A DNA stretch of 64,000 nt from Symmachiella dynata. GTDB lineage: Bacteria; Planctomycetota; Planctomycetia; Planctomycetales; Planctomycetaceae. The translations under genes and the position numbers were made by a program. Numbering within the stretch: the stretch's first letter is position 1; the number at the start of each line of letters is the position of its first letter. The notes under the pieces were generated by a model. That model ran no database searches. It worked only from the letters and a program-made list of their open reading frames with translations, and had not been told where the DNA came from. Below, piece after piece: positions 18,766 through 45,444 of this stretch. The DNA lies in the NCBI RefSeq assembly GCF_007747995.1, contig NZ_CP036276.1:7120001-7184000 (forward strand), written 5' to 3'.

Positions 18766-19731
18766 TCAATACTCGACGTTCGTGAGATCCGTGGCGGGTG
18801 GATGAGGCAGGCAGTGCACCGCTTCGGCAGCCGCATCGAGTAACTGGACAGCTTCGAGCGCGGGTGCCTGAAGTGCGGCAGCGGTTTCATCGTCGAGTCG
18901 TTGTGGCGTCCCGCCTTGAAAGACGTTGGTCACAGCACCGGGACTGGTCCGCAACACACCGCCCAGATACCGACCGGCCATCACGAACAGCCGCACATCC
19001 CAAAAGTTGCCGTCGCGAAGTTGCGGGATGATCCGCTCGGACAGCAGATGATTCCCAAAAAACGACTGTGGCGGATCGTGCGGATCGGCGACTTGTACGC
19101 CATGCCCACCAAAACCAACGCGAGGTTTGATCACATACCCGCGTTCAAATAGATTGGGATGTGCACTGAGGATCGCGGCTGCCTCACTGGGAGTTTCCAC
19201 CGCAAAACTGCGCGGGACACGAAAGCTGGTTGCCGACTTCAGCGCGGTATAACAGTCGAGTTTGTCGCGGACAGCGACCCAGGCGGCGTTGGGATTGATC
19301 ACGCGGACGCCGCTGCGCTCATACGACCACGGTAGGTCGTACCACCAGCGGAAAATGCTCCCGGGTCGTACACGATTCCCTTTGCGGGTCAGTAACTCAT
19401 GGGAATCTTGCTGGTTGTCCTCCACGTGGCAAATGACCAGCTCTCGGTCGAGGTGCAAACGCAGGTGCCCGGCAATCCAACAGGCGTCTTCGTCGGCGTC
19501 GGGCAAGGGATCGTTCCGCCGCCACATCAGGCAGGTGGGGCCGTCGGCTGCGTTTAAGACCTCGGCGGTATGTCGAAACGGCATATCGTTTTTGTAGAGC
19601 AACAGGTATTCCCACAGCATGTGCGAACAACGATTGGCCTCCAATAAGACCGGTGTGCCGTCGGCATCGAACATGAAGTCCAACCCGGCCCACTGGTAAT
19701 GCTGCACTGGGACGGAAGCGAAATTAGGCAT
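18766..19731 (-). CDS. ATP-grasp protein with unusual (possibly permuted) domain order
   Basis: 321 residues. ATP-grasp signatures are present but out of order. WAGLDFMFDADGTPVLLEAN (14-33), the metal-binding D...E-x-N segment that normally ends the domain, comes first. A pre-ATP-grasp-like part follows (VINPNAAWVAVRDKLDCYTA, 144-162), then the glycine-rich loop GYVIKPRVGFGGHGVQVADP (Lys202), a nucleotide-binding Glu near 232, and WDVRLFVMAGRYLGGVL (Arg247). No E-x-N follows before the end. Such enzymes ligate a carboxylate to an amine or thiol using ATP. The start MPNFASV overlaps the end of the QueC-like gene (ATGCCTAA, 8 bases), which rules out a longer N-terminus in an independent gene. 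Substrate unknown. Confidence 0.75.
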   Translation of the reverse strand: MPNFASVPVQHYQWAGLDFMFDADGTPVLLEANRCSHMLWEYLLLYKNDMPFRHTAEVLNAADGPTCLMWRRNDPLPDADEDACWIAGHLRLHLDRELVICHVEDNQQDSHELLTRKGNRVRPGSIFRWWYDLPWSYERSGVRVINPNAAWVAVRDKLDCYTALKSATSFRVPRSFAVETPSEAAAILSAHPNLFERGYVIKPRVGFGGHGVQVADPHDPPQSFFGNHLLSERIIPQLRDGNFWDVRLFVMAGRYLGGVLRTSPGAVTNVFQGGTPQRLDDETAAALQAPALEAVQLLDAAAEAVHCLPHPPATDLTNVEY

Positions 19732-20392
19732 CGGCGTACACCGTCGGATCGTCAATACCTGCCGCCATGAATGCCTGCTGCCGGCTGCCACATTTGATGC
19801 AGCGTCCGCAATGCTGATTGTCCCGAGGATCGACACAGGAGAAACTGTGCGCCAGCGTGTCGCGATCGGTTTCGCGGATGACGTCGGTCTTGGTCATTTG
19901 GATATAGGGGGTGAGAATTTCAATCGGACGACCTGCTTCGAGGCTGAGCAGTTCCTGCGCGCTGTCAAAGTATGCGCGGCTACCATCGCGAAAGGAGTTG
20001 TCGGCGGTGGTGCCGAGCGCGCATTGAAAGTCCGGCAAATGTGCGACTTTAGGGAGTGCAAAACTCAAAAGCATGAGATTGCGTAGAGGGATTTCCAAAT
20101 CGTGGCTTCTAGCTCCCGCACGGGGGATGTTGTTTCCGGTGACGGCCCAATGATTGTCGAGCCAACCGGCGAGGGGAATCTGAAATTGAATGAGCGGGTC
20201 CAAGTTGTCTGATGCGTGTGCCTGGCATAATTGTTGAACGAAGAGCGTCTCGACGTCATCCCAAATCAAGCCGCAATGCACGTGCACGGGAACAACGCGT
20301 CGCTGCTGGCTGAGAAATCGGCTGACCAACGACGTGCTTTCGACACCGCCGCCAAGCAGTACAACGATCGGACATTCCAGGGTGTTTGACAT
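19724..20392 (-). CDS. QueC-like PP-loop protein (7-cyano-7-deazaguanine synthase-like)
   Basis: 222 residues. The PP-loop LLGGGVESTSL (about 12-22) deviates slightly from the usual S-G-G-x-D-S. EIPLRNLMLLSFALPKVA matches the QueC helix with the Arg-Asn pair; TPYIQMTKTDVI and the four zinc cysteines (186, 195, 198, 201 in SCVDPRDNQHCGRCIKC) complete the family pattern. QueC adenylates carboxy-deazaguanine and amidates it to preQ0. No queD, queE or queF is nearby. The gene overlaps the ATP-grasp gene by 8 bases, so this may be a paralogue acting on another carboxylate. The start at MSNTLE is chosen because the fold begins there; the frame is open far upstream. Confidence 0.85.
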   Translation of the reverse strand: MSNTLECPIVVLLGGGVESTSLVSRFLSQQRRVVPVHVHCGLIWDDVETLFVQQLCQAHASDNLDPLIQFQIPLAGWLDNHWAVTGNNIPRAGARSHDLEIPLRNLMLLSFALPKVAHLPDFQCALGTTADNSFRDGSRAYFDSAQELLSLEAGRPIEILTPYIQMTKTDVIRETDRDTLAHSFSCVDPRDNQHCGRCIKCGSRQQAFMAAGIDDPTVYADA

Positions 20393-20454
20393 CGCGGGTG
20401 TGGGGTGGTGTGCGCAATGGTGTGGGGTGAAACCGGTGTGGACGCGGCGGGATG

Positions 20455-21972
20455 TTATTTGCCTTCGGCGGCCCAACGTTTCATTTGTTGGATGTTGTCC
20501 TGCAATTCTTGAAGATCTTCGATCGATCCGCGGCGCCGCCGAGTATCGAGGTACAGCTCCATGTCGCTGTCGTACATGGCTTCGGATTCGGGATTCCGGC
20601 CGTGGTCGTTGGTGCGGACAATCCAATCGTCGAGGCGGTTTCGCATGTCGGCCAATGGCGTGGCGAATTTGGCGTCGCCGGCAAGATTGTGAATTTCGTG
20701 CGGATCATTTTCGAGATCGTACAATTCTTCCGGCGGTCGGGTGGGAGCGAACAGTTGTTTTTGGATGTCGTTCAACTCACCAGCAGCAAAGGCGCGCCGC
20801 AGATCGATGAGGATTGATTTGTGGTCTTTATAGGCGCACGGCTGGAGGTGCGGTCGTTGTGGCAAATAATTGCGGATGTATTTGAAACGATCCGTCCGCA
20901 CGCATCGCAGATGTTCGACCGTTTCGTCGCAGCGATCACGGGCGGCAAAGATCGCTTCACGGGGTTGATAGTCCTCGGCAAGTACATCCTGCGCCTGCAT
21001 GGTTTCGGGGAGCGGAATTCCCGCTGCTGCAAGGGATATGGCCGCCATGTCGATGTGTTCGATCAAGTCCTCCCGAATGGTTCCCGCTGCGATCCCCGGG
21101 CCGCGGAGGATGAACGGAACGTGAATTCCTTCTTCGTACAAAAACTGTTTGCCGCGGGCGTGGCTGATGCCGTGGTCGGTCATGAACAGCACGAGTGTTT
21201 GGTCAAGGACGCCTTCCTCCTTGAGCCGCGCGATGATCTCCCCGACAACGCGGTCCGTTTCGAGGACGGAATCCAAATAGGCGGCCCAATCTTCGCGCTG
21301 CACCGGTGTGTCGGGGTAATAGGGAGGAAGTTTTACGTCAGCAGGGTCCGTTTTGCTTCCAAACTTTTGCTTTGCCTTTTGAGCAAATTTTTGCGCCGAC
21401 TGCCGCGTACCGCCGCGGAGTTTTCCACCGGGGAGTTGGATCTGAGCAAAGAAGGGCTGCCCCGGTTTGCGGTTGGCCCAATCGGAACCGTCGTACATCG
21501 ATCGATCCCACTCGAAATTGTAGTCGGTTTTGCCGAGTCGATTGGGACGGATCGGCCATCCGCTGATGGTCGTGTAATAGCCGGCGCGTTGGAACAACAG
21601 CGGAATCGGTTCGACGCCGGGCGGGAGGTGAATTTTTTCTTCGCCACGTCCACTGCGATGATGGTGCGCTCCAATCGCTGTTTGGTACATGCCGGTGATA
21701 AAGGCCGAACGACACGTGGAACAGACCGGAGCAGTCACAAATGCGCGGTTAAACTGCACGCCCTCCCGGGCGAGTTGATCAACATGTGGTGTTTCGATCA
21801 ACGTTTCTCCGTAACAGGAAAAGTTGGCCGACATGTCGTCGACAACGATCCAGAGAATATTGGGCCGCGCGGGGGCAGGATCGGCGGCCTTCGTCATGGA
21901 GGGGGATGCGAAGACGAGGGTAGCGAGGAATAGTAAGACTGATGTCCAGCGAATGGTGTTTGCGTTGTTCAT
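20455..21972 (-). CDS. Secreted sulfatase with atypical CSTCR active-site motif
   Basis: 505 residues. Signal peptide about 1-29 (cleavage near MTKAAD). The sulfatase fold begins PNILWIVVDDMSANFSCYG with the first metal aspartates; the nucleophile region reads APVCSTCRSAFITGMYQT, so Cys84 is the predicted formylglycine. The core is C-S-T-C-R where most family members have C-x-P/A-S-R. Downstream TDHGISHARGKQFLYEEGIH supplies the other metal and catalytic residues. Resembles the heparan N-sulfatase-like group (YQTAIGAHHHRSGRG). Planctomycetes carry many such enzymes for sulfated algal polysaccharides. No anaerobic or aerobic maturase is in the window. Upstream lies a repeat of the CCCTCACC family. 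Confidence 0.9.
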   Translation of the reverse strand: MNNANTIRWTSVLLFLATLVFASPSMTKAADPAPARPNILWIVVDDMSANFSCYGETLIETPHVDQLAREGVQFNRAFVTAPVCSTCRSAFITGMYQTAIGAHHHRSGRGEEKIHLPPGVEPIPLLFQRAGYYTTISGWPIRPNRLGKTDYNFEWDRSMYDGSDWANRKPGQPFFAQIQLPGGKLRGGTRQSAQKFAQKAKQKFGSKTDPADVKLPPYYPDTPVQREDWAAYLDSVLETDRVVGEIIARLKEEGVLDQTLVLFMTDHGISHARGKQFLYEEGIHVPFILRGPGIAAGTIREDLIEHIDMAAISLAAAGIPLPETMQAQDVLAEDYQPREAIFAARDRCDETVEHLRCVRTDRFKYIRNYLPQRPHLQPCAYKDHKSILIDLRRAFAAGELNDIQKQLFAPTRPPEELYDLENDPHEIHNLAGDAKFATPLADMRNRLDDWIVRTNDHGRNPESEAMYDSDMELYLDTRRRRGSIEDLQELQDNIQQMKRWAAEGK

Positions 21973-26529: not shown

Positions 26530-28782
26530 TCACAACCTGAAGTGGAACGTCTCAGCGAGATACCGCCAAGCGACTTGTGCGAGGGTGCGGCGTTTGCATT
26601 CGATTTTGGCGCGGCCTTTTAATCCCGACACCAACAGATCCATAGGAAAATTGCCCTCCGGGTCTTGGATGAAGACCAGTGCTTGATAGGAGGTGTTGAG
26701 CGGCTTCATGCGACCGGAGGAATCCTGGGTGGTGGCAAGTTCACCGCCGAGGGAGTTGGAGAGTTGGCTGGGGGAGTCCTCCATCACGCGCCGCGAAAGC
26801 TGTTCGATTTTGCATTGAAAGGTTTTGTCGGGAAACGCATCGAATTTGATGTAGACCGGAAAACCTTCCTGGACGAACTCAATCTCGGATTGGTCGATGA
26901 TCAGAATCGCTTCTTTTTGGTGAGGATCGCCAATCGTGCAAACGGACGTACCCGGTTCTAAAAAAGTACCGAGGTTGCGCTTGTCGAGCGGGCTCCCATG
27001 CCAGCGGGGGAGCGTTTCGTAGATATCGTGGTGGGGCGGTTCAGAGACAATTTCGGGAGGAAACACGGTTCCGTCGACCGGCGCTGTGACGCGGAGGTCG
27101 TCGATCTGCTCTTGGCGGATTTCGACTTGTTTGAGGGCGTCATGATAAAGCTCCTCGGACTGGGCTCTCTCTCCGCCAAATTTGCTGCCCAGATTGCGAT
27201 AAACGACTTCCGCGTATTTTTGGTCGGTGGCAATCCGTTCCTGTGCGCGCAGTTCGAAGTTGAAGTCCTCGTTCTCCAATTCGACGAGTACGTCCCCTTT
27301 TTTGACTTGTTCCCCTGGTTGCACAAGCACCTTTTTGATGCGACCACCCCCTTTGACGAACACCGCTTCGGCGTCGCGGGGCCGGACGGTAAAGACCGTG
27401 TTGACTCGCTTAGGCACCGGGATCATTAAAAAGCCGACCAGCAATGCGACAGCGACGACTCCACTGACCGTGGCCCGGAATTTTTTGATCATTTCCAACC
27501 TTCCCGGAGTAAAGATGAACTTCACCATTTTGACGACCGGCATGACAAACATCATGATGACAATACCGGTAGCCATCATCGCGCTGATGGCGCCTAACTT
27601 GTACGGTTTGAGAAACGTGTACAAGAACAGCAGAATCCCGAACGTGACCATCCAGCGATAACACCAACTGGCGATGGCATAAGTAATAAACCACCCTTTG
27701 CGAGATTTGGGCATAAAGGGATCGGCGGGCATTTCCAAGCCGAGGCAGACCTGCGCGGCGGTCCGTTGCAGCAGTTGGTTTGCCTTGGTTCGCAGGTTGG
27801 GAATTTCCAACCAGTCGCTCATGACGTAGTAGCCGTCAAATCGCATCAGCGGGTTGGCGTTGAGCAGGATGGTATTTACCGAACAGACAAACATCGTGCT
27901 AAAGGCGATGTTGTGGATCAAGCCGGGTGCGGAATACCACCAGATGAACGTAGAGATCGAGGCGAGCACCACTTCGACGTAAATTCCAGCCAGACTGATG
28001 GCGATGCGGTGCCATTTGTTGGGCATTGTCCAGGAGTCCGAGACGTTGCAATACAGCGCCGGGGAGAGCACGAGGAACAGCATCCCCATTTCATGGCATT
28101 CGCCGCCAAAATGATGGCAAGTCAAGCCGTGTCCGAACTCGTGGACAATTTTTGTCATCCCCATGGCGATCCACAGCCAGACGATGTTTTTCATGTTGAA
28201 AAAGGAGTGAAAGCTTTCCATTTCCGGGCGACCGCGGAACTCATGGAAATTCACCAAGACTAACCCCAAAGCGGAGAACGCCAGCAGAACAACACAGGCC
28301 AGCGCCCATGGGGTGTAGATCCATTCGAAGCGGGGATACAGCCAATTGAGCGCCCGTGCGGGGTCGAAACCAGGGAGTTTGATGTACAGCACGTTCGACA
28401 GCGTGGACTTCAATTGCTTTTTGGCGCGGTCCTCGCGGCGTTTGAGCAGCTTTGCCCCCTGCCCTGCCGCCTCGCTGATGACCATTCCCGATTCATGCAG
28501 CCGGCCGATGAATTGCTGCAATTCTTCGAGCGTGATTTTTTGCGGAATGAATTCCGCCTCGAATTCGTCTTTGATTTCCTTGAGGCTCCGCACGCCATCG
28601 AGCGACGCGAGGATTTTGTATTCTTCTTCCTGAAACCGGTAGTACTTGAGTCCGACCGGATCCTTAATCAGGTAGTAGGTCCGCCCCTCGTAGCGTTGCT
28701 CGCTGACGACCAAATCGGGACGGCGGCGCAAAATCACCGGCCGTTCGATCGAGGCAGCCATCGAGGAATTGGGGGAGGCCAT
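26530..28782 (-). CDS. PqqD-like / M50 protease / HlyD adaptor fusion
   Basis: 750 residues in three parts. Residues about 22-105 resemble PqqD (YYLIKDPVGLKYYRF, EYKILASLDGVRSLKEIKDE), the fold that recognises peptide leaders. About 155-440 is an M50 (site-2 protease) membrane core with the zinc site HEFGH at 214-218 and NPLMRFDGYY at 310-319 (Asp316). From about 455 on is an HlyD/RND adaptor: a helix, a biotinyl-lipoyl-like region (KVLVQPGEQVKKGDVLVELE), a coiled coil and a barrel. No outer-membrane factor or ABC ATPase adjoins it. It lies downstream of the GAF-HlyD and SecA-like genes on the same strand. Substrate unknown; peptide processing with export is an inference from the domains. Confidence 0.85.
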   Translation of the reverse strand: MASPNSSMAASIERPVILRRRPDLVVSEQRYEGRTYYLIKDPVGLKYYRFQEEEYKILASLDGVRSLKEIKDEFEAEFIPQKITLEELQQFIGRLHESGMVISEAAGQGAKLLKRREDRAKKQLKSTLSNVLYIKLPGFDPARALNWLYPRFEWIYTPWALACVVLLAFSALGLVLVNFHEFRGRPEMESFHSFFNMKNIVWLWIAMGMTKIVHEFGHGLTCHHFGGECHEMGMLFLVLSPALYCNVSDSWTMPNKWHRIAISLAGIYVEVVLASISTFIWWYSAPGLIHNIAFSTMFVCSVNTILLNANPLMRFDGYYVMSDWLEIPNLRTKANQLLQRTAAQVCLGLEMPADPFMPKSRKGWFITYAIASWCYRWMVTFGILLFLYTFLKPYKLGAISAMMATGIVIMMFVMPVVKMVKFIFTPGRLEMIKKFRATVSGVVAVALLVGFLMIPVPKRVNTVFTVRPRDAEAVFVKGGGRIKKVLVQPGEQVKKGDVLVELENEDFNFELRAQERIATDQKYAEVVYRNLGSKFGGERAQSEELYHDALKQVEIRQEQIDDLRVTAPVDGTVFPPEIVSEPPHHDIYETLPRWHGSPLDKRNLGTFLEPGTSVCTIGDPHQKEAILIIDQSEIEFVQEGFPVYIKFDAFPDKTFQCKIEQLSRRVMEDSPSQLSNSLGGELATTQDSSGRMKPLNTSYQALVFIQDPEGNFPMDLLVSGLKGRAKIECKRRTLAQVAWRYLAETFHFRL

Positions 28783-28813
28783 AGTTCACATCGGGTAGAA
28801 GATTGGTTGATTC

Positions 28814-28834
28814 GTAGGGTGCGTCGCGACGCAC
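28814..28834. repeat. GTGCGTCGCGACGCAC repeat, family 2, copy 1
   Basis: GGTGCGTCGCGACGCAC at the core is a 16-base perfect palindrome. Other copies: 29263-29284, 41973-41990, 42683-42700 and 45423-45444. Confidence 0.75.
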
Positions 28835-28867
28835 TTATCTGTGGAGGACGATTGATAAAAAGTTCGG

Positions 28868-28922
28868 GGTAGCCGCGATGGCGCAGACATCGGGGCGGGC
28901 GCAGCCCGCAAGAAGCCGCAAT
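28868..28922. repeat. GCGGGC/GCCCGC repeat, copy 2 (inverted)
   Basis: Inverted copy of 18178-18235 over about 55 bases; the shared parts include ATCGGGGCGGGC and GCCCGCAAGAAGCCGCAAT. Confidence 0.7.
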
Positions 28923-29262
28923 ATCCGCGCCCTGATACGAGTAGAGTCTCGATGGCAAGGACAGCTGAAACTGCTGCGTCTTGTGCCTACGGCACACCGA
29001 TTGCCGTTGGCAATCGCTGCCACCCTGTAATTGTTTCCTCCGAGGCTAAATGAATTTGTCCCAAAGGGACAGGGAGTATGTTGTTGGGTGAAGTTACGGA
29101 GTTGTGTGACGTGGATCGGTTGTGTGCGGCTTGGCGGGAGCCTCGACCTCCCGGTTTTTTTTACGTGGGTTTGCGATTTTGTTTGCTTTTTTCCTCTTTG
29201 CGATTTCTGCGACTTTGCGTGAGGTTTTTTTCCGGTTGGGAATTTCTCGTACTACTCAGAAA

Positions 29263-29284
29263 GGTGCTTCGCGACGCACCCTAC
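29263..29284. repeat. GTGCGTCGCGACGCAC repeat, family 2, copy 2
   Basis: GGTGCTTCGCGACGCACCCT, one change from the palindrome, inverted relative to the copy at 28814. Confidence 0.7.
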
Positions 29285-29288
29285 CTTG

Positions 29289-31313
29289 TCAGTAGCCGAG
29301 CCAGAACTTGACGTTGTAATAAAACGCATCGATGGCGGGGTGGAAGTAGACGTAGCCTAGGGGGCGTTCGCCGCAGATGATGCCTGCTTTGACCTCAGCA
29401 CCGGGGCGGAGTTTTTCGGGCATGTCTTCGGGGTCGGGCGTGATCGTCAAGAGGACGACGTTTCCTTCTTCTTCGACAACCTCGGTGATCATGGCGGTTT
29501 TTTCGACTTTGCCGTGATAACGCCGCTCGGGATTGGTGGCCAGGACGTACGTCACATCGAGTTGTTCCCCCGGTTTCAATTCTTGTTGTGCGCGGAGAAT
29601 ATGGCCGACGCGGTCCTCGGGGACTTTGACTTCCAACACCCAGGATTTTTGGTCATCGGCGACGCTGACCAGCAACGTTCCGGGTTGGACGGGGCGATTG
29701 GCGATGCGTTCTTCGATACCCCAAGTCGTAACCACACCTTCGATAGGGGAGATGATGTTGAGGTTCCGTTTGCGTTGCTGGAGCGATTCCACATCCGCTT
29801 TCAAGCTTTCGCGGTTGGCATCCAGCGACATTAAATCGCCCGTGATTTGGATTTTTTCCTGCTCGGAAATTCCCTCAGCATTACGCTGATTGCGTTTGAT
29901 GTTGTATTCGCTTTCGGCGCGATGCAATTCGATTTGGGCTTTTTGGAGTTGGCTTTCAAGGTTGAGATCTTCCATCTCGACCAAGACGTCGCCCGGATGA
30001 ACACGATCGCCATGGTCCACGCGAATATTGCGGACGGTTCCCGCTTCGCTGGCAAATAGGTCGCGGCGGATCCTGGGCTGCAATTTCCCGTCACCTTCCA
30101 GACGGAACTCACCCGGCACAAGCGTGAGCACACCAATGATTCCGGCCAGCAACATCAACACCGCCAGGAATTTCGCCAGTCCGCGGCCTTTGAGTTTGGA
30201 GACCTGGCTTCCCATCCATTGCCAAACTGGCAGCAGAAACACGCGCTGGTAGCGCTGCGAGTTATACAAGGCGGTTTCGCTGTGCCGCACGACGATCTCG
30301 GCCAGTTCCCGCAATTGCGGTTCGGGCTGATTGTCCTCGATCTGCTCTACGACCAACGCACCAAAATAGCGGCTCTCTGCTTCGGGGTCGTCTTGGGTTT
30401 CTTTGAGCGGCATGACAAACACCGCTTTGGAACTTCCTTCGTCGACATAGTCCCGCAGGGCCTCTTCGATTCGAGGAGGCAGATCATCTGTTGAACCGGT
30501 ATAGACCAATGGTTCACCGGCGAAGACAACCGAATCGACCAGTGCGGACATCAATTGTGTAAGGTTGGCGCGGCGGTCGACGACGTCCTGCCCACTGATG
30601 GCCTCGATCCGCATTTTTTTACCATGCCGCAGCGCGACGCTGACACGGTCGCAACCGATGAGCCGGCGTCCGTCGTTGGCAACAGTGTAGGCAACGGCAT
30701 TGGTTTTTAGCGAAGTGTGGACCTGCCGGGTGAAGGATTCCAAACGCGACCAAAGATGTTGGCGATCGACGAGTCCCCGCAGGCGACGGTTTTTGAGGAA
30801 ACCCGCACCAAGTTCGCAGACTTGGTTCAAAAAGCGCTCGTAGCCTTGTTGCACGACGGGCGCCGCCGAGGGGTTGTGAAAAACTTCTACGAGGCCTTCG
30901 GCTGTGCCATCGACAGTCAAGGGACTGGCAACGATCAGATAATCAGTCGGATTGCCGGGGCTGCCGGGTTCGGTGCCCCCACTCTTGGCCGGGATCGCTG
31001 CACCGCGATTGTTGGTGAGAATTTGTCCCAGCAAGCGGCCGTGTGTTTGTTGTCCCGCTTCGCCAAGTTGATCAAAACCAACTTCTTGCAAATTGATTTG
31101 ATAAACAAGTTCCAAAGCGCCGGCATCATTGCGGAGCCAAACCGCTCCGGCGGGCGCGGCTAAGGCGGCCAGGATTCGCCCCAGATAATTGGGGAAATAC
31201 TCCTCGTCCGAGACATCGGTCTCCGACAGCCGTGCAATCTCGCTCACCAGACGGCGGATCTGCTGCTTGGTTTTTTCAATTTGGCTGGTGCCGGCGGTTT
31301 CGGTCGTAGACAT
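29289..31313 (-). CDS. GAF domain / HlyD membrane fusion protein
   Basis: 674 residues. The cytoplasmic half holds two GAF-like sensor regions (about 40-170 and 195-350: LAAPAGAVWLRNDAGALELV and GCDRVSVALRHGKKMRIEAI). One membrane helix follows (KFLAVLMLLAGIIGVLTLVP, 381-400). The periplasmic half is an HlyD adaptor: VRNIRVDHGDRVHPGDVLVE (lipoyl-like), a coiled coil (about 455-525, LQKAQIELHRAESEYNIK), the second lipoyl half (RNLNIISPIEGVVTTWGIEE) and a barrel. GAF domains on an adaptor protein suggest signal-gated transport. It is the middle gene of the SecA-like/GAF-HlyD/PqqD-M50-HlyD row on the minus strand. Family call firm; partner and cargo unknown. Confidence 0.88.
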   Translation of the reverse strand: MSTTETAGTSQIEKTKQQIRRLVSEIARLSETDVSDEEYFPNYLGRILAALAAPAGAVWLRNDAGALELVYQINLQEVGFDQLGEAGQQTHGRLLGQILTNNRGAAIPAKSGGTEPGSPGNPTDYLIVASPLTVDGTAEGLVEVFHNPSAAPVVQQGYERFLNQVCELGAGFLKNRRLRGLVDRQHLWSRLESFTRQVHTSLKTNAVAYTVANDGRRLIGCDRVSVALRHGKKMRIEAISGQDVVDRRANLTQLMSALVDSVVFAGEPLVYTGSTDDLPPRIEEALRDYVDEGSSKAVFVMPLKETQDDPEAESRYFGALVVEQIEDNQPEPQLRELAEIVVRHSETALYNSQRYQRVFLLPVWQWMGSQVSKLKGRGLAKFLAVLMLLAGIIGVLTLVPGEFRLEGDGKLQPRIRRDLFASEAGTVRNIRVDHGDRVHPGDVLVEMEDLNLESQLQKAQIELHRAESEYNIKRNQRNAEGISEQEKIQITGDLMSLDANRESLKADVESLQQRKRNLNIISPIEGVVTTWGIEERIANRPVQPGTLLVSVADDQKSWVLEVKVPEDRVGHILRAQQELKPGEQLDVTYVLATNPERRYHGKVEKTAMITEVVEEEGNVVLLTITPDPEDMPEKLRPGAEVKAGIICGERPLGYVYFHPAIDAFYYNVKFWLGY

Positions 31314-31782
31314 GAAAGTCCTAGTGCTGCTCGGCAGCTTGGTTTTCGGAGCGGTTATTCATATACGCCACTCCGGTGTCGCTTTCCTGTTCGTTGTTCG
31401 TACTCGAAAACTAAGTTGATATGGTCTACTCCTGGAATGACCACTTCAATTTGTCATGCGGCAATTTGCCGATTCCGCACGAACCCCCAACGGGCTTCGT
31501 GTCCTGATCGATACGATCATTTAGGTTGTCACAATTACACGACAGCACAGTCCGAAAGTGAGCAGCCCTTCGGTTGCTGTATTCTGCCAGATGCATGGCA
31601 ATCCGTCCAACGGGAATTGCTGCCTAGCCTAGAATAAGGCGAAATGTACGAACGGCTCGTTCGGCAGCGGCCGTCGCGATAAACGGTTTTCCTATTTATA
31701 ATGGTTGCGTAATTCACCGATGAATCAAGCCTCCCGCCGCAGACTTCAAGCGAATCCGCGTCTGGAAGTGTTATCGCTACGA

Positions 31783-31804
31783 TAAAAAAGCCTCCAAAGT
31801 AGGC
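31783..31804 (-). terminator. Weak terminator after the SecA-like gene
   Basis: On the minus strand GCCTAC-TTTG-GAGGC followed by TTTTTT, about 190 bases beyond the stop codon of the SecA-like gene. The stem is short (5 base pairs), so this is tentative. If real, it would separate the SecA-like transcript from the GAF-HlyD gene. Confidence 0.4.
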
Positions 31805-31892
31805 ACTACGTCAGAATTTTGTGCAGAGACTTCCGTTGACGCCCACTGAATCAGACACCCCGGTACATCATTCTGCTTCCGATCACACATTG

Positions 31893-31916
31893 CGACGGCA
31901 AGCCGTCGGTTTGGGG
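31893..31916. repeat. GACGGCAAGCCGTC repeat, family 3, copy 1
   Basis: GCGACGGCAAGCCGTCGGTT plus TGGGG; further copies at 40158-40182 (inverted, diverged) and 40296-40320. GACGGC-AA-GCCGTC is a perfect hairpin. Confidence 0.65.
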
Positions 31917-31995
31917 TGCTGCTGTTTCAGGCCTGAAAAACTGTGTTTCTTCGGTGTTTCTTCAGCGGCTAGGCGATGCACACTGCGTTGTGGGG

Positions 31996-33972
31996 TTATT
32001 CTGCGGTGTTGAGGAAAGGGTCGAGGCCCATGTTTTCTTGCATCTCGGTGCGGCGTTTTTCGAATTTCATCATTTGTGTGCGTCCGCGGGAATGTTTGCG
32101 TTCGATCCTGCGTTGTGCTTTACGGAGCAATTTGACGAGGCGGTCTTTTTGGACGCCGCCGTTGGAAGCTGCGGAGCGGTAACTTTCGCGAATGCGCCGC
32201 GCTTTGGCGGTGCCGTAGCCTTCGAGCAATTGGTCGTCCAGTGAGAGGAAAAACTGACTGGAGCCGGGTGCACCGTGGCGGCCGGAGCGACCGACCAGTT
32301 GGTTGTCGACCCGTTCGGAGTCATGCCGCTCGGTCCCGATGACGTGCAGGCCCCCCATGGCATCGACTTCTTTGGACACTTTGATATCGGTCCCGCGGCC
32401 CGCCATGTTGGTGGCAATGGTCACGGCGCCGAGTTCTCCGGCTTTGGAAACGATCTCCGCTTCCTTTGCATGTTCCTTGGCATTGAGAATGGTGTGCGGG
32501 ACGCCGTTTTCTTTGAGTAGTTTGCTGACGTGCTCCGACGCATCAATGGAGCGGGTACCGATCAAGACCGGTCGTTGTTGCTCATGCAATTTCCGCGCTT
32601 CGTTGACGACCGCTTGCCAACGCGCCTCGGCTTGGGTGAACATTTGGTCGGGCAGGCGTTTGCGCTTCGATGGATAGTGTGTGGGGATTTTCAAGGCGGT
32701 CAGGTTGTAGATCCGTCGGACTTCCCAGCGCGAACTCCAAATCGTTCCCGTCATGCCGAGAAGGTTTTTGTACCTTAAAAAATAGTTTTGAATCGTCGTC
32801 CGCGCCGCCTGGCTGGTGCCGACCGTTACAGCCACGCGTTCCTTGGCCTCGATGGCTTGGTGCAATCCGCCGCGAAGTTTACGGCCGTGCATAATCCGCC
32901 CGGTACCTTCGTCGACGAGTTGAATCTCGCCATCCATCACGACGTATTGCTGATCACACTGAAATTCGAGCAGGACTTTGATCGCCCGCTCGATGTATTC
33001 GTATAGTTCCTCCAACGGCATCTGCCGGACAAGATTAGACATCGGCAGCGCGCGGACCTTCCAACGTCCCTCGCGTTTCAATTCGATGGTTTTCTTTTCC
33101 GGATCACGGGTAAAGTCTTCGCGGTCCTGAAACTCACCGGCATGCCGCGCCGCCCATTCGTAGGTATCGACGACCTGTTGTTCCGGCTCGGAACTGGGGG
33201 CACTGATGATCAATGGGGTACGAGCATCGTCGATCAGGACGCTATCGGCTTCGTCGATAATGGCGCAATAATGCCCGCGCTGCATGGGCGTTTCGGTTTT
33301 GCCCTTCTCGCCGAACAACAAATCCGCGGCACCGGATGCGGATGCTTCGCCCCCCATCGCCAAGCGATCTTGCAAAAAGTCGAAGCCAAACTGCGTGGCT
33401 GTTCCGTAGGTGATATCGCATTGATAGGCGGCGCGGCGGGTGTTTTTATCGAAATCGGGATTGGTCACCCCGACCCGCATGCCCAACAGGTTATAGACGG
33501 GCGACATCAGTTCGGCGTCGCGTTGGGCGAGATAGTCATTGACGGTCATCACATGCACGCCCTGACCGGCCAGGGCGTAGAGGTAAACCGGGAGCGTGGC
33601 AACCAGGGTTTTGCCTTCGCCCGGTTCCATTTCGATGAGCGCACGGCGGGTCATGGCGGTACCGCCCAGCAATTGCACGTCGTGGTGCCTTAGTCCGACG
33701 GTGCGTTGCGCGGCCTCGCGGACGATAGCGAATGCACGAGGCATGACTTTCTCAAGGGTTTCGCCCCCTTTGATCCGCCAACGGAGGTCTAAACTCGCCT
33801 TGCGTAGTTCGGCATCGGTGAGCTTTTTGATCTCATCTTCGAGCGCATTCACACGGCGAACGTTGAGCGCCGATTGCGCAAAGGCACGTGCAGCGCGGCC
33901 TCCGATACGGGCTCGAATTGCATTCCACCAAGCGGGTCCAAATCTCGACATCGACCGCGAATATCCCCTCAT
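31996..33972 (-). CDS. SecA-like ATPase lacking the C-terminal SecA domains
   Basis: 658 residues, against about 850-950 for housekeeping SecA. NBD1 has the Walker A loop MEPGEGKTLVATLP (Lys121) and the DEAD-type IIDEADSVLIDDARTPLIIS (about 238-257). A PPXD-like stretch and the VDEGTGRIMHGRKLRGGLHQ segment follow, then NBD2 with TIATNMAGRGTDI. The arginine-finger motif reads QLVGRSGRHG where SecA has Q-L-R-G-R-x-G-R-Q-G, so one Arg is lost. After NBD2 only about 70 basic residues remain, so the helical wing, most of the scaffold and the zinc tail are missing. This resembles accessory SecA (SecA2-type) proteins. The start is uncertain by 7 residues (33972 or 33951). Confidence 0.85.
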   Translation of the reverse strand: MRGYSRSMSRFGPAWWNAIRARIGGRAARAFAQSALNVRRVNALEDEIKKLTDAELRKASLDLRWRIKGGETLEKVMPRAFAIVREAAQRTVGLRHHDVQLLGGTAMTRRALIEMEPGEGKTLVATLPVYLYALAGQGVHVMTVNDYLAQRDAELMSPVYNLLGMRVGVTNPDFDKNTRRAAYQCDITYGTATQFGFDFLQDRLAMGGEASASGAADLLFGEKGKTETPMQRGHYCAIIDEADSVLIDDARTPLIISAPSSEPEQQVVDTYEWAARHAGEFQDREDFTRDPEKKTIELKREGRWKVRALPMSNLVRQMPLEELYEYIERAIKVLLEFQCDQQYVVMDGEIQLVDEGTGRIMHGRKLRGGLHQAIEAKERVAVTVGTSQAARTTIQNYFLRYKNLLGMTGTIWSSRWEVRRIYNLTALKIPTHYPSKRKRLPDQMFTQAEARWQAVVNEARKLHEQQRPVLIGTRSIDASEHVSKLLKENGVPHTILNAKEHAKEAEIVSKAGELGAVTIATNMAGRGTDIKVSKEVDAMGGLHVIGTERHDSERVDNQLVGRSGRHGAPGSSQFFLSLDDQLLEGYGTAKARRIRESYRSAASNGGVQKDRLVKLLRKAQRRIERKHSRGRTQMMKFEKRRTEMQENMGLDPFLNTAE

Positions 33973-41829: not shown

Positions 41830-41972
41830 ACGACGGCTTTTCAATACCTGCTTTGCGAATACAGACCAGCGAACCGGGAGGGCGAAGCTCCTGCTGAGCC
41901 GCGATTCAAAGAAGACAGTCACTCTGCACGAGGTTTTCTTGCAGCGGTTCAACGGTCGTCCTATGCAGAAAA

Positions 41973-41990
41973 GTGCGTCGCGACGCAACC
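41973..41990. repeat. GTGCGTCGCGACGCAC repeat, family 2, copy 3
   Basis: GTGCGTCGCGACGCAACC, perfect for 15 of 16 palindrome bases, just outside the stop codon of the small membrane protein. Confidence 0.65.
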
Positions 41991-42385: not shown

Positions 42386-42904
42386 GATAATCCCTCGAAC
42401 GGTTGACTGCCTTCAAATTGAAGAGAATCGGGCACTTTGCAACGATATCGAGACGATTCCCCACGATGAGCACTTTGGCGATTTCGCCACGCGTATATAA
42501 CGCGACTCAATCACAAATGTCCGTCGCTCCGTGGTGAATTTAACCGATCCAATCGACGTGCCTGACGCAATCGATGTGTATCTAACGCGTCCGGAAGGTG
42601 TTCACGCATGGTTTTGATTGCCGAATGAAAACGTTTCCCGGCGCCGTTTTTGTTTGGAGGGACTTTATTGCCGAACAGGAACGTGCGTCGCGACGCGCCC
42701 TGCAAAGATGAGTAGGCCGGCGTGATTGGTTTAATCGAAATAATCGTGTCGCGTTGGCGAGGGATTGTTGTCTGCGGCGGAGCTTAATTGGTTGTGGGGA
42801 CGGAAGTTGCGGAGATGTGTTTGACTCCGTCTCTCCGTGAGATAGTCTTTTCTGGCGATTGCGGAGCGTGCGCGGTGCCAAGATGATCTCGGAGAATCCC
42901 CCCC
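42386..42904. other. Intergenic stretch with a family 2 repeat
   Basis: About 519 bases between divergent genes. One GTGCGTCGCGACGC-type unit at 42683-42700. Nothing gene-like with a ribosome binding site; the promoter of the HD-GYP/GGDEF gene must lie at the right end. Confidence 0.45.
42683..42700. repeat. GTGCGTCGCGACGCAC repeat, family 2, copy 4
   Basis: GTGCGTCGCGACGCGCCC, one change from the palindrome. Confidence 0.65.
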
Positions 42905-45052
42905 ATGATGAATGTCACTGAAGTACCGGCCCCCTCTAACTCAAACAGCCAACAGTATCTCACCGACTCTTCGCAAGTCTTGTTGGGTTTGTTGACGTTG
43001 TCCGACAATTGTGTCGCACATCCCCGCACGACCGATGACGATACCGGCGACGTCATTGCGCGCCCGGCGTTGACCAGCTTGCTGTCGGCGCTGCATTACC
43101 GCGACGTGGCGACGGTCGAACATGCGCGGCGGGTGGCGATGTTGGCATTGGGCATGGCATCGCAAATTGGCTGGGAAGATCGGGAACTGAAGGTACTGGA
43201 AGTAGCCGCACTGCTGCATGACATCGGCAAGATCGGCGTTCCGGACAGCATCCTGTTCAAGCCAAGCTCCTTGAGTCCCGAAGAAGCGGAACTCATGTCG
43301 CTGCATTATTACATTGCCAACGACGTGCTGCAGGCGTACCACGTAGATCCTGAAGTCTTAGAGATCGTCAGCCAATGTCACGAACACTACGACCGTGTTG
43401 GGTATGATTCCCAACGCGTGGGCAGCGACGTCCATATGGGCGCGCGGATTTTAGCAGTGGCCGACGCCTATGATTCCTTGGCGACCGAACAGGTCTACCG
43501 CAAGGCCAAGCCGCACGATGAGATCATGCAGATCTTAATGCTCGGCGCGGGAACGCAATTTGATGGAAATATCATTTGTTCGTTGTCACGCTGGGTGGAA
43601 GATGGCCGGGTGCCGACGGGAATGCATTTGAACAGCAAGGGTTTGCTGCCCTCTGAAGTTTCGGAACGTGAATTTCGCGGCGACTCAGAAAATGCCGGCG
43701 CTCTGTGCCATATTTTTGCTTATCTCCACTTATTAGAGAATCTGTATGACGGATTCTATTTGATGAATTCCGATCAACGTTTCGTCGTCTGGAACCGCCG
43801 CGCCGAAGACCTGCTGGGGCATCGCCCACACCATATGCTGAACAACGTCTGGTCCAACAAGACCTTGGGCTACTGCAACGAAAAAGGCAAACCGCTTGCC
43901 GACAAGAAGTGTCCCCTCTTTCAAGCATTGGCCGAACGAAAGCCGGTTACCACCACGCTGCCGGTGCGGCATCGCAGTGGCGAACTGGTTGAGGTGGAAG
44001 TCCAGACCGTACCGTTGATCGATAGCGAGGGAATCCTGAAGGGCGTCGCGGAGATCTTCCGCAATACCTCTCGACAGGGAGGAAAAACCCAGCAGTATCG
44101 CGAGCTCAAAGAAGCCGCCAGTCGCGATTCGCTGACGCAAACGGCCAATCGCGGCGAGATGGAACGGCAACTCGAACAGACATTGGCCGAGGCGACAAAT
44201 GGCCAAACCGCTGAGACGTTCTGCGTTATTTTTATTGATGCCGATCATTTCAAGAGCATCAACGACGATTTCGGCCATACGGTCGGGGACGACGTGTTAG
44301 TCGAACTCGCCAAACTCCTGCAGAATGAAACCTACTCTGGCGAGTTGGTGGCGCGTTACGGCGGCGAGGAATTTGTGGTCATCTGTCCCGCAACGGACCT
44401 CGACCAAGGTTACAAGCGAGCCGAGCGGCTCCGCATCGCTGTGAGCAAACTCAAGATCGCCGATCTCAAAGGTCGCAAGCTGACCGCATCGCTGGGTATC
44501 GCGGTGAACGAGCCGGGTGATACCGTCACGGATCTTCTCAGCCGCGCTGACAAGGCACTGTACGAAGCCAAAGGGGCCGGCCGCAATACGACGCGGGCGT
44601 ACGCAAACAAAGAGTTGGACATCCAGTGCCAACTGGAGAACGCCCAAAAAGAGGCCAAAGAGGCGGAGGCATTTATGTACAAAGGCACCTTCCACGCAGT
44701 GATCGCGTCGGACATGTTGGTCTATAAGCTGGCAGGATTTGTCGACGATTACCAATCCAAAATTCTGGAAGTGACCCCCGAGCGCGTCGTCATGCGTCTC
44801 GGCAACCGCGGCGTCATTCCAGGGTGGGGCAATCATGACGGCCGACGCCCGGTGACGATTGAGGTGGTTATCGGCAAGGAAGAAGTCCAAGAGCCTGGCA
44901 AGACGCGCGCACGGGCCAAGCGGGTGGAGATTCTGGTCACAATTAGTCCTGTGGGCTGGATCCGCAAAAAAGACGTCTTCCAACACCGCGCTGCCGGCGT
45001 CTTCAAGGATTTGAAGAGCTACTTCATCGCTGATATGGATTTATCACCGTAG
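42905..45052 (+). CDS. HD-GYP / PAS-like / GGDEF signalling protein
   Basis: 715 residues. HD-GYP-like domain about 55-230: VEHARRVAML, LLHDIGKIGVPD (His105-Asp106) and a changed GYP region, CHEHYDRVGYD, where H-H-E-x-x-D-G-x-G-Y-P is usual. A PAS-like domain (about 275-390: GFYLMNSDQRFVVWNRRAED, LVEVEVQTVPLIDSEGILKG). GGDEF domain about 405-570 with an intact catalytic RYGGEEF (486-490) and DADHFKSINDDFGHTVGDDV; the allosteric R-x-x-D site before it is absent. The last 135 residues form an unrecognised domain. It probably makes cyclic di-GMP; phosphodiesterase activity is doubtful. GGAGA lies upstream of the ATG. Single gene, no membrane segment. Confidence 0.88.
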   Translation: MMNVTEVPAPSNSNSQQYLTDSSQVLLGLLTLSDNCVAHPRTTDDDTGDVIARPALTSLLSALHYRDVATVEHARRVAMLALGMASQIGWEDRELKVLEVAALLHDIGKIGVPDSILFKPSSLSPEEAELMSLHYYIANDVLQAYHVDPEVLEIVSQCHEHYDRVGYDSQRVGSDVHMGARILAVADAYDSLATEQVYRKAKPHDEIMQILMLGAGTQFDGNIICSLSRWVEDGRVPTGMHLNSKGLLPSEVSEREFRGDSENAGALCHIFAYLHLLENLYDGFYLMNSDQRFVVWNRRAEDLLGHRPHHMLNNVWSNKTLGYCNEKGKPLADKKCPLFQALAERKPVTTTLPVRHRSGELVEVEVQTVPLIDSEGILKGVAEIFRNTSRQGGKTQQYRELKEAASRDSLTQTANRGEMERQLEQTLAEATNGQTAETFCVIFIDADHFKSINDDFGHTVGDDVLVELAKLLQNETYSGELVARYGGEEFVVICPATDLDQGYKRAERLRIAVSKLKIADLKGRKLTASLGIAVNEPGDTVTDLLSRADKALYEAKGAGRNTTRAYANKELDIQCQLENAQKEAKEAEAFMYKGTFHAVIASDMLVYKLAGFVDDYQSKILEVTPERVVMRLGNRGVIPGWGNHDGRRPVTIEVVIGKEEVQEPGKTRARAKRVEILVTISPVGWIRKKDVFQHRAAGVFKDLKSYFIADMDLSP

Positions 45053-45422: not shown

Positions 45423-45444
45423 AGGTGCGTCGCGACGCACCCTA
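45423..45444. repeat. GTGCGTCGCGACGCAC repeat, family 2, copy 5
   Basis: GGTGCGTCGCGACGCACCCT, a perfect palindrome core with the same flanks as 28814-28834 (inverted). Confidence 0.75.

Follow-up and report, generated by a model that had tools for sequence, protein, structure and literature searches.

A stretch of 64,000 nucleotides from the planctomycete Symmachiella dynata was analysed, positions 7,120,001–7,184,000 of its single-contig 7.77-Mb genome (NZ_CP036276.1), called hereafter the window. It carries three consecutive genes on the minus strand, which encode a SecA-like ATPase of 658 amino acids (aa; 31996–33972), an adaptor in which HlyD domains are joined to a GAF domain (GAF-HlyD, 674 aa; 29289–31313) and an adaptor combining a PqqD-like region, an M50-type site-2 protease and HlyD (M50-HlyD, 750 aa; 26530–28782). 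A reading of the sequence alone had placed the genes at these positions, and all three open reading frames are intact there. It had also taken them for an undescribed export cassette; the same gene set had in fact been published in 2015 (PMC4452313). What is added here is a candidate cargo: the trio is probably part of an exporter that crosses the cell envelope, with a cargo of large or giant proteins bearing an N-terminal leader similar to NCBI's LEPR-XLL domain.

Domains and motifs of the three proteins

The SecA-like protein matches the Pfam families SecA_DEAD (335 bits), P-loop_SecA (208 bits) and SecA_PP_bind (PF01043, 84.9 bits). The last, the preprotein cross-linking domain, covers residues 269–375 (32848–33168; this and the other features of the trio given in this section lie on the minus strand). 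NCBIfam SecA models match the protein below their cut-offs. Alignment to the best solved relative, the SecA2 entry 6t4h, covers 6t4h residues 23–612 of 781; since it stops there, the C-terminal scaffold/wing part is missing from the window protein, and SecA_SW gave no Pfam match to it at E≤0.001. The shortened motor of the sequence-only reading is thus confirmed. The Walker A motif GEGKT (residues 118–122, 33607–33621) is unchanged throughout the 21 SecA-like sequences compared, which come from the loci fetched and include the window copy.

In GAF-HlyD, Pfam calls the HlyD domains and one GAF domain above its cut-off (PF01590, 31.2 bits, residues 206–348, 30270–30698), so that the fusion stands and the plural “GAF sensors” of the earlier reading is reduced to one. 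RND_mfp matches this adaptor below cut-off.

For M50-HlyD, both Peptidase_M50 (30.0 bits, cut-off 27.2) and HlyD are called by Pfam. The zinc-protease motif HEFGH occupies residues 214–218 (28129–28143), and H214, E215 and H218 of this HExxH motif, like D316 in the DG motif, do not vary among the 34 aligned relatives. M50-HlyD therefore has the catalytic residues of a site-2 protease, and intramembrane proteolysis is predicted. A profile of the family matched solved adaptors strongly and the M50 protease entry 3b4r weakly (E 0.0041). Two models of peptide-processing proteases were matched below their cut-offs, NF041824 (daptide intramembrane metalloprotease, 188 bits versus 300, residues 37–421) and NF058609 (YydH/LiaK epipeptide protease, 39.5 bits versus 225, residues 189–335). 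The PqqD-like region is approximately residues 10–105 (28468–28755), with boundaries set by us. It is indicated by relatives, 19 of the 34 aligned members matching PF05402 at E≤1 (best 1.6e-6), and by a weak match of the family profile (positions 8–99, E 0.0052) to the solved PqqD protein 3g2b. Of the three parts that had been assigned to this protein, M50 and HlyD are thus established by Pfam, and PqqD is suggested by these two comparisons.

The gene set in the same genome and in relatives

The module described in the main text of Kamneva, Poudel and Ward (2015; PMC4452313) consists of SecA_DEAD without SecA_SW, M50+HlyD, GAF+HlyD, HlyD and sometimes OEP; Methylorubrum extorquens AM1 is among the organisms for which these authors describe the operon. 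Its biological role is there called completely unknown and no cargo is given; SecA as the ATPase and M50 as the membrane pore were already suggested, and the part absent from the SecA-like protein is that by which SecA engages the rest of the translocase. A term search of the same main text returned zero occurrences of PqqD, LEPR, adhesin, cadherin and DUF3467. The window resembles this module in having SecA_DEAD without SecA_SW, M50+HlyD and GAF+HlyD in one locus; it differs in that custom profiles found neither a third HlyD nor an OEP gene there. No later paper naming a cargo was found in the literature searched, outside which lie most subscription papers and all preprints. In that literature LEPR-XLL came up twice, as the name of a domain and, in the text seen, with no exporter (PMC10868602, PMC9611531). 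The cassette is thus already known; added here are the proposed link between leader and cargo, which is new to the literature searched, the PqqD-like domain and the version without SecA.

A second cassette lies in the same genome at about 4.175–4.185 Mb, with the SecA-like, GAF-HlyD and M50-HlyD genes in the order of the window and identities to the window proteins of 45%, 31% and 35%, respectively. It has in addition a TolC-like OEP protein, whose gene runs on the other strand, and a small HlyD protein, the third adaptor, encoded among these genes. The remark of the earlier reading that no outer-membrane factor is adjacent is therefore true of the window, where the profile scan found none, and not of cassette 2. 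A third, longer SecA is encoded elsewhere in the genome. The three gene types also stand in the window's order in another genome (G121, locus L015).

Two sets of loci were inspected for the neighbours of M50-HlyD. Among 35 stretches (the window, cassette 2 and 33 picked from genome matches, hence not a random sample), GAF-HlyD or a shorter HlyD relative was present in 30, a small adaptor in 25, a SecA-like gene in 17 and a TolC-like gene in 10. Among 47 named planctomycete loci of more than 15 kb around the closest relatives of the window protein, the corresponding numbers were 36 (GAF-HlyD), 33, 6 and 3. Because GAF-HlyD is found in 36 of these 47 loci and SecA-like in only 6, M50-HlyD and GAF-HlyD form the stable core; SecA-like is often elsewhere, and the contiguous trio is rarer in the window's lineage. 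The adjacency on which the sequence-only reading relied is thus conserved for the two adaptors, and much less so for the ATPase. Near the pair, a periplasmic adaptor gene is present in most named relatives and lacking in the window.

Small precursor peptides, which that reading had expected nearby, were rejected as cargo: no family of small genes is common to the loci except one encoding a DUF3467 protein, in a survey that did not search very short open reading frames systematically. This protein of about 100–150 aa stands beside adaptor genes in eight loci (L015, L035, L036, L045, L049, L176, L177 and L179). The domain was called in scans of three of the six members of its cluster (C5), and NCBI annotates it at the equivalent place in Methylosinus, Pseudosulfitobacter and Thalassospira. 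It is possibly a chaperone or a regulator.

A putative leader motif shared by large proteins

Several large proteins encoded beside cassettes in relatives begin with an N-terminal basic stretch followed by the motif LExRx(L/V/M)(L/F)x(A/G), for example LEPRVVLTA, LEERIVLDA and LEDRTLLSA. The motif overlaps the LEPR-XLL model NF012209, which matched two of eight such N-termini below its cut-off (E 0.0084 and 0.032). As sole probe NF012209 was discarded, being too narrow for the window's family (it leaves the window's own genome empty at E≤0.001). For this reason a wider model, A1, was built from 16 N-termini, nine from beside cassette genes and seven from NF012209 matches. Given this origin of its rows, counts were also taken separately for an out-of-sample set, the 243 genomes beyond the first 149 (taking handles G000–G148 as the first 149).

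The motif and M50-HlyD co-occur in Planctomycetota. In the first sample NF012209 matched 7 of 149 genomes at E≤0.001, all seven among the 32 with M50-HlyD (P 1.2e-5; relatedness is not corrected for in this P value or in any other except those of the family tests), and in the full set 23 of 392 genomes, of which 22 belong to the 98 that have M50-HlyD (P 1.5e-13). Similarly, A1 matched 19 of the 149 genomes at E≤0.001, all 19 with M50-HlyD, and 72 of the 392 at E≤0.01, 67 with M50-HlyD. Out of sample, where 66 of the 243 genomes have M50-HlyD, 15 of 16 NF012209 genomes and 47 of 49 A1 genomes coincide with it. At family level (76 families in the first 149 genomes, 19 of them with M50-HlyD), all 11 families with an A1 match at E≤1e-3 have M50-HlyD (Fisher P 1.3e-8), as do 12 of 14 at E≤0.01 (P 1.2e-7).

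Motif genes also lie near cassette genes. Of the 47 A1 matches (E≤0.01) in first-sample genomes with M50-HlyD, 15 were no more than about 10 kb from a cassette gene, versus 0.57 expected; six of them are outside the rows of A1 (two in G048, one each in G005, G105, G126 and G137). Among the 111 listed out-of-sample matches, 12 lay within 5 kb of M50-HlyD versus 0.41 expected (P 1.5e-14). These 12 come from 11 genomes and seven families, with five of the 11 genomes in a single family (f2).

The same arrangement is found in Proteobacteria. A search of plasmid proteins with the window M50-HlyD returned 80 records, all of at most 60% identity, and loci for 17 of the 30 listed were fetched. In 12 of the 17 the motif stands beside M50-HlyD: Methylosinus, Pseudosulfitobacter, Thalassospira, Variovorax, Azospirillum brasilense, A. 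lipoferum, A. thermophilum, Burkholderia anthina, Niveispirillum, Tistrella, an Escherichia coli plasmid and Alisedimentitalea. In most of these it opens a giant gene of the same row, of 3,302 to about 16,200 aa, and the Thalassospira protein is named LEPR-XLL by NCBI itself. In A. thermophilum the motif starts a short annotated gene that adjoins cadherin- and VCBS-type genes, in the unannotated Tistrella locus a frame of 1,893 codons about 5 kb downstream, and in Alisedimentitalea it closely precedes the annotated start, in the same frame. Extra matches were found elsewhere in frames at four loci (L179, L181, L194 and L219); single matches therefore mean little, and the argument is carried by position and gene size. 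HExxH is kept in 13 of 13 plasmid M50-HlyD proteins checked, the first match in B. anthina, at residue 102, being outside the usual place. A SecA-like gene is present in Methylosinus (where the annotation says prepilin peptidase and Pfam says SecA), Pseudosulfitobacter and Alisedimentitalea, and none is annotated in the stretches fetched from Thalassospira, Variovorax, A. brasilense, Niveispirillum, B. anthina and the E. coli plasmid. On the latter (NZ_CP081687.1, 52799–69240) a giant Ig-like gene whose product begins with LESRQLFDG is accompanied by TolC, two adaptors and M50-HlyD; the M50-HlyD DNA of this locus occurs in 24 of 5,426 E. coli genomes, at 25 places of which 21 are on plasmids.

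In the window's own genome A1 gave 10 matches at E≤1, of which eight were listed and read in place. Each of the eight places the motif close to the N-terminus of its protein, and the proteins range from 286 to 6,482 aa. Four of these proteins were scanned: two contain RTX and PKD domains, one is an animal-type haem peroxidase and one has FG-GAP and Calx-beta domains. Upstream of cassette 2 lies a large PKD-repeat gene; at about residue 68 its open frame reads LEERRLLDS, an imperfect motif (S for A/G) that is not among the listed A1 matches. Between this gene and the SecA-like gene of cassette 2 lies a gene for a protein kinase of 1,864 aa (locus L013, 3582–9176, plus strand), with WD40-type repeats by eye; its cluster, C4, is present in six loci.

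Twelve leaders were scored for hydropathy. The peak was at most 1.52 in ten, versus 2.5–3.0 in three signal-peptide-like N-termini; the other two were one from the window's own genome (own2, 2.26) and that of Methylosinus (1.64). As ten of the twelve have no strong hydrophobic stretch, most are unlikely to be ordinary Sec signals. The motif shared by the cargo candidates is N-terminal, in an analysis that covered their N-termini. Some leaders have D before the final A/G (as in MFDA, VLDG, FDA, LDA or LDG; loci L015, L042, L043, L180, L182, L183, L212 and L214). This D is common where no SecA-like gene is adjacent, yet it also occurs in the SecA-bearing locus L015; leader subtypes on this basis are possible and were set aside for that reason.

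The window neighbourhood and the competing readings

The gaps between the window genes are 506 and 682 bp, so that a tight operon is not established. The 506-bp gap between M50-HlyD and GAF-HlyD (28783–29288, no strand assigned) holds two copies of a dispersed palindrome, GTGCGTCGCGACGCACC. At up to two mismatches the palindrome is found at five places of the window (28818–28835, 29263–29280, 41972–41989, 42682–42699 and 45424–45441), ten strand matches versus a mean of 0.06 in shuffled sequence. No tandem array was found at 26–36 kb of the window. The “repeat-filled gaps” of the sequence-only reading thus contain a dispersed repeat and no tandem ones. Promoter-like matches are at chance level (4 versus a mean of 3.6), terminator-like matches number 20 versus 11.6 (sd 3.7), and neither count settles co-transcription. 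Custom profiles detected no OEP gene and no gene for the third adaptor (MFP) in the neighbourhood, and no ABC exporter was seen among the genes scanned around the cassette, a part of the window's open reading frames. Further away, two frames at 18766–20626 (minus strand) encode a QueC-like protein (40.7 bits, cut-off 150.3) and a RimK/ATP-grasp ligase-like protein (about 33 bits, below cut-offs), possibly a small biosynthetic pair, and a signalling protein of HD/PAS/GGDEF type is encoded at 42905–45052 (plus strand).

How such an exporter might work can be outlined. Its core would be the PqqD-like/M50/HlyD protein with partner adaptors and a TolC-like channel. The PqqD-like domain may bind the leader in the cytoplasm, and the M50 site may cut it; the conserved x-A/G that follows the hydrophobic pair is a possible cleavage position. 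Where present, the SecA-like ATPase would thread the unfolded chain, while the bridge to the outer-membrane channel would be formed by GAF-HlyD and the small periplasmic adaptor together with the HlyD portion of M50-HlyD. Since the part by which SecA engages the translocase is absent, the SecA-like protein may instead attach to the adaptors. What we infer is that the leader is bound and cut, where the cut falls, what the ATPase does, how the parts assemble physically and that export takes place at all. Recognition, cutting, threading and passage through the adaptors and channel are proposed because most of the leaders scored have no strong hydrophobic stretch, because PqqD-like domains bind leaders in the cytoplasm in systems for ribosomally synthesized and post-translationally modified peptides (RiPPs), and because M50 proteases similar to this one, those of daptides and epipeptides, act on leaders. 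The earlier idea of leader recognition, cleavage and export by a single machine is strengthened by the link to a candidate cargo, which is shifted from small RiPP precursors to large or giant proteins with a LEPR-XLL-like motif.

Compared with known systems, the cassette shares HlyD adaptors with type I secretion (HlyB-HlyD-TolC), as well as a TolC-like channel in cassette 2 and relatives and a candidate cargo that is partly of large repeat or RTX type. It differs from it in that no ABC exporter was seen beside the cassettes read and that the motif shared by the cargo is N-terminal, whereas classical type I signals sit at the C-terminus and are not cleaved. With SecA and SecA2 the SecA-like protein shares the DEAD motor, P-loop domain, preprotein cross-linking domain and Walker A motif; their C-terminal part is missing from it. 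M50-HlyD has the M50-type HExxH of the daptide and YydH/LiaK proteases; it differs from them in its scores, in being fused to an adaptor and in the giant size of its proposed cargo. Finally, the motif of the proposed leader is that of LEPR-XLL, whose model matches cargo candidates in the 23 genomes counted above. A wider proposal has in our view an even chance of being right: LEPR-XLL would be a cleavable export leader and the PqqD/M50/HlyD protein its dedicated receptor-protease, on a route for giant proteins that crosses phyla and is distinct from ABC-driven type I secretion, with a SecA-derived motor replacing the ABC transporter in one branch and dispensable in another.

Several observations weigh against export of motif-bearing giants by the cassette. 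Pfam calls no PqqD-like domain in the window M50-HlyD even at E≤1. In the window's own genome the motif is found by the wider model only, and none of the eight listed genes is within 15 kb of a cassette. First-sample proximity is partly built in, as nine of the 15 near matches are themselves rows of A1. In the flanks of the 80 named loci closest to the window M50-HlyD, three open reading frames with an N-terminal motif were found, versus a mean of 0.65 (sd 0.89, maximum 4) for 200 permuted motifs; this is no clear excess, and proximity is therefore weak in the window's own lineage. The co-occurrence counts compare the motif models with M50-HlyD alone, and when shuffling was confined to the seven families of mixed content, P was 0.046, with one contrary family (f50). 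No A1 match at E≤0.01 was found in 31 of the 98 genomes with M50-HlyD, and conversely five genomes have A1 matches and no M50-HlyD (G003, G013, G061, G165 and G223), among them the sole genome with an NF012209 match (G165, 5.5e-4) and no M50-HlyD match. Among the plasmid loci, those of Magnetospirillum, Phyllobacterium, Ensifer and Indioceanicola have M50-HlyD but gave no motif match beside it, the Indioceanicola stretch ending about 7 kb upstream of the match; the Rhizobium locus, with its match 1.3 kb from the record end, could not be judged.

Three other explanations were weighed against this background. The motif could be a canonical Sec or envelope-retention signal, the proteins being moved by SecYEG and housekeeping SecA, with the cassette only finishing passage through, or retention at, the outer membrane and M50 trimming a leader held in the membrane. 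SecA-like is indeed absent from several neighbourhoods that have both M50-HlyD and a motif giant, so that the motor must there come from elsewhere, and the planctomycete genomes examined also have a longer SecA; but most of the twelve leaders lack a hydrophobic stretch like that of a signal peptide (one reaches 2.26), and the PqqD-like region points to binding in the cytoplasm. We consider this explanation unlikely, though the strongest of the three. That the window genes are separate paralogues which no longer cooperate would fit the two long gaps with their palindrome and the lack of OEP and MFP genes nearby. It agrees less well with three intact frames that keep their catalytic motifs, and with the recurrence of this set of gene types, in unchanged order, in L015 and cassette 2, and it seems to us improbable. 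The third explanation, that the cassette exports small peptides or unrelated proteins and that motif giants merely accompany large cell-surface repertoires, would account for the 31 genomes without an A1 match, for the few adjacent motif genes in the 80 closest loci and for the resemblance of M50-HlyD to the daptide protease. Against it are the co-occurrence in 22 of 23 and 67 of 72 genomes, proximity far above expectation and the giant motif genes that directly adjoin M50-HlyD in proteobacterial plasmids, and we give it slightly less credence than the preceding one.

If the cassette does export the proteins that bear the motif, an orphan exporter described in 2015 and an orphan N-terminal domain, LEPR-XLL, may explain each other. 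Planctomycetes and many proteobacteria would then have a way to secrete proteins that are thousands of residues long, and it would be explained how a SecA-derived motor could work with HlyD and TolC parts.

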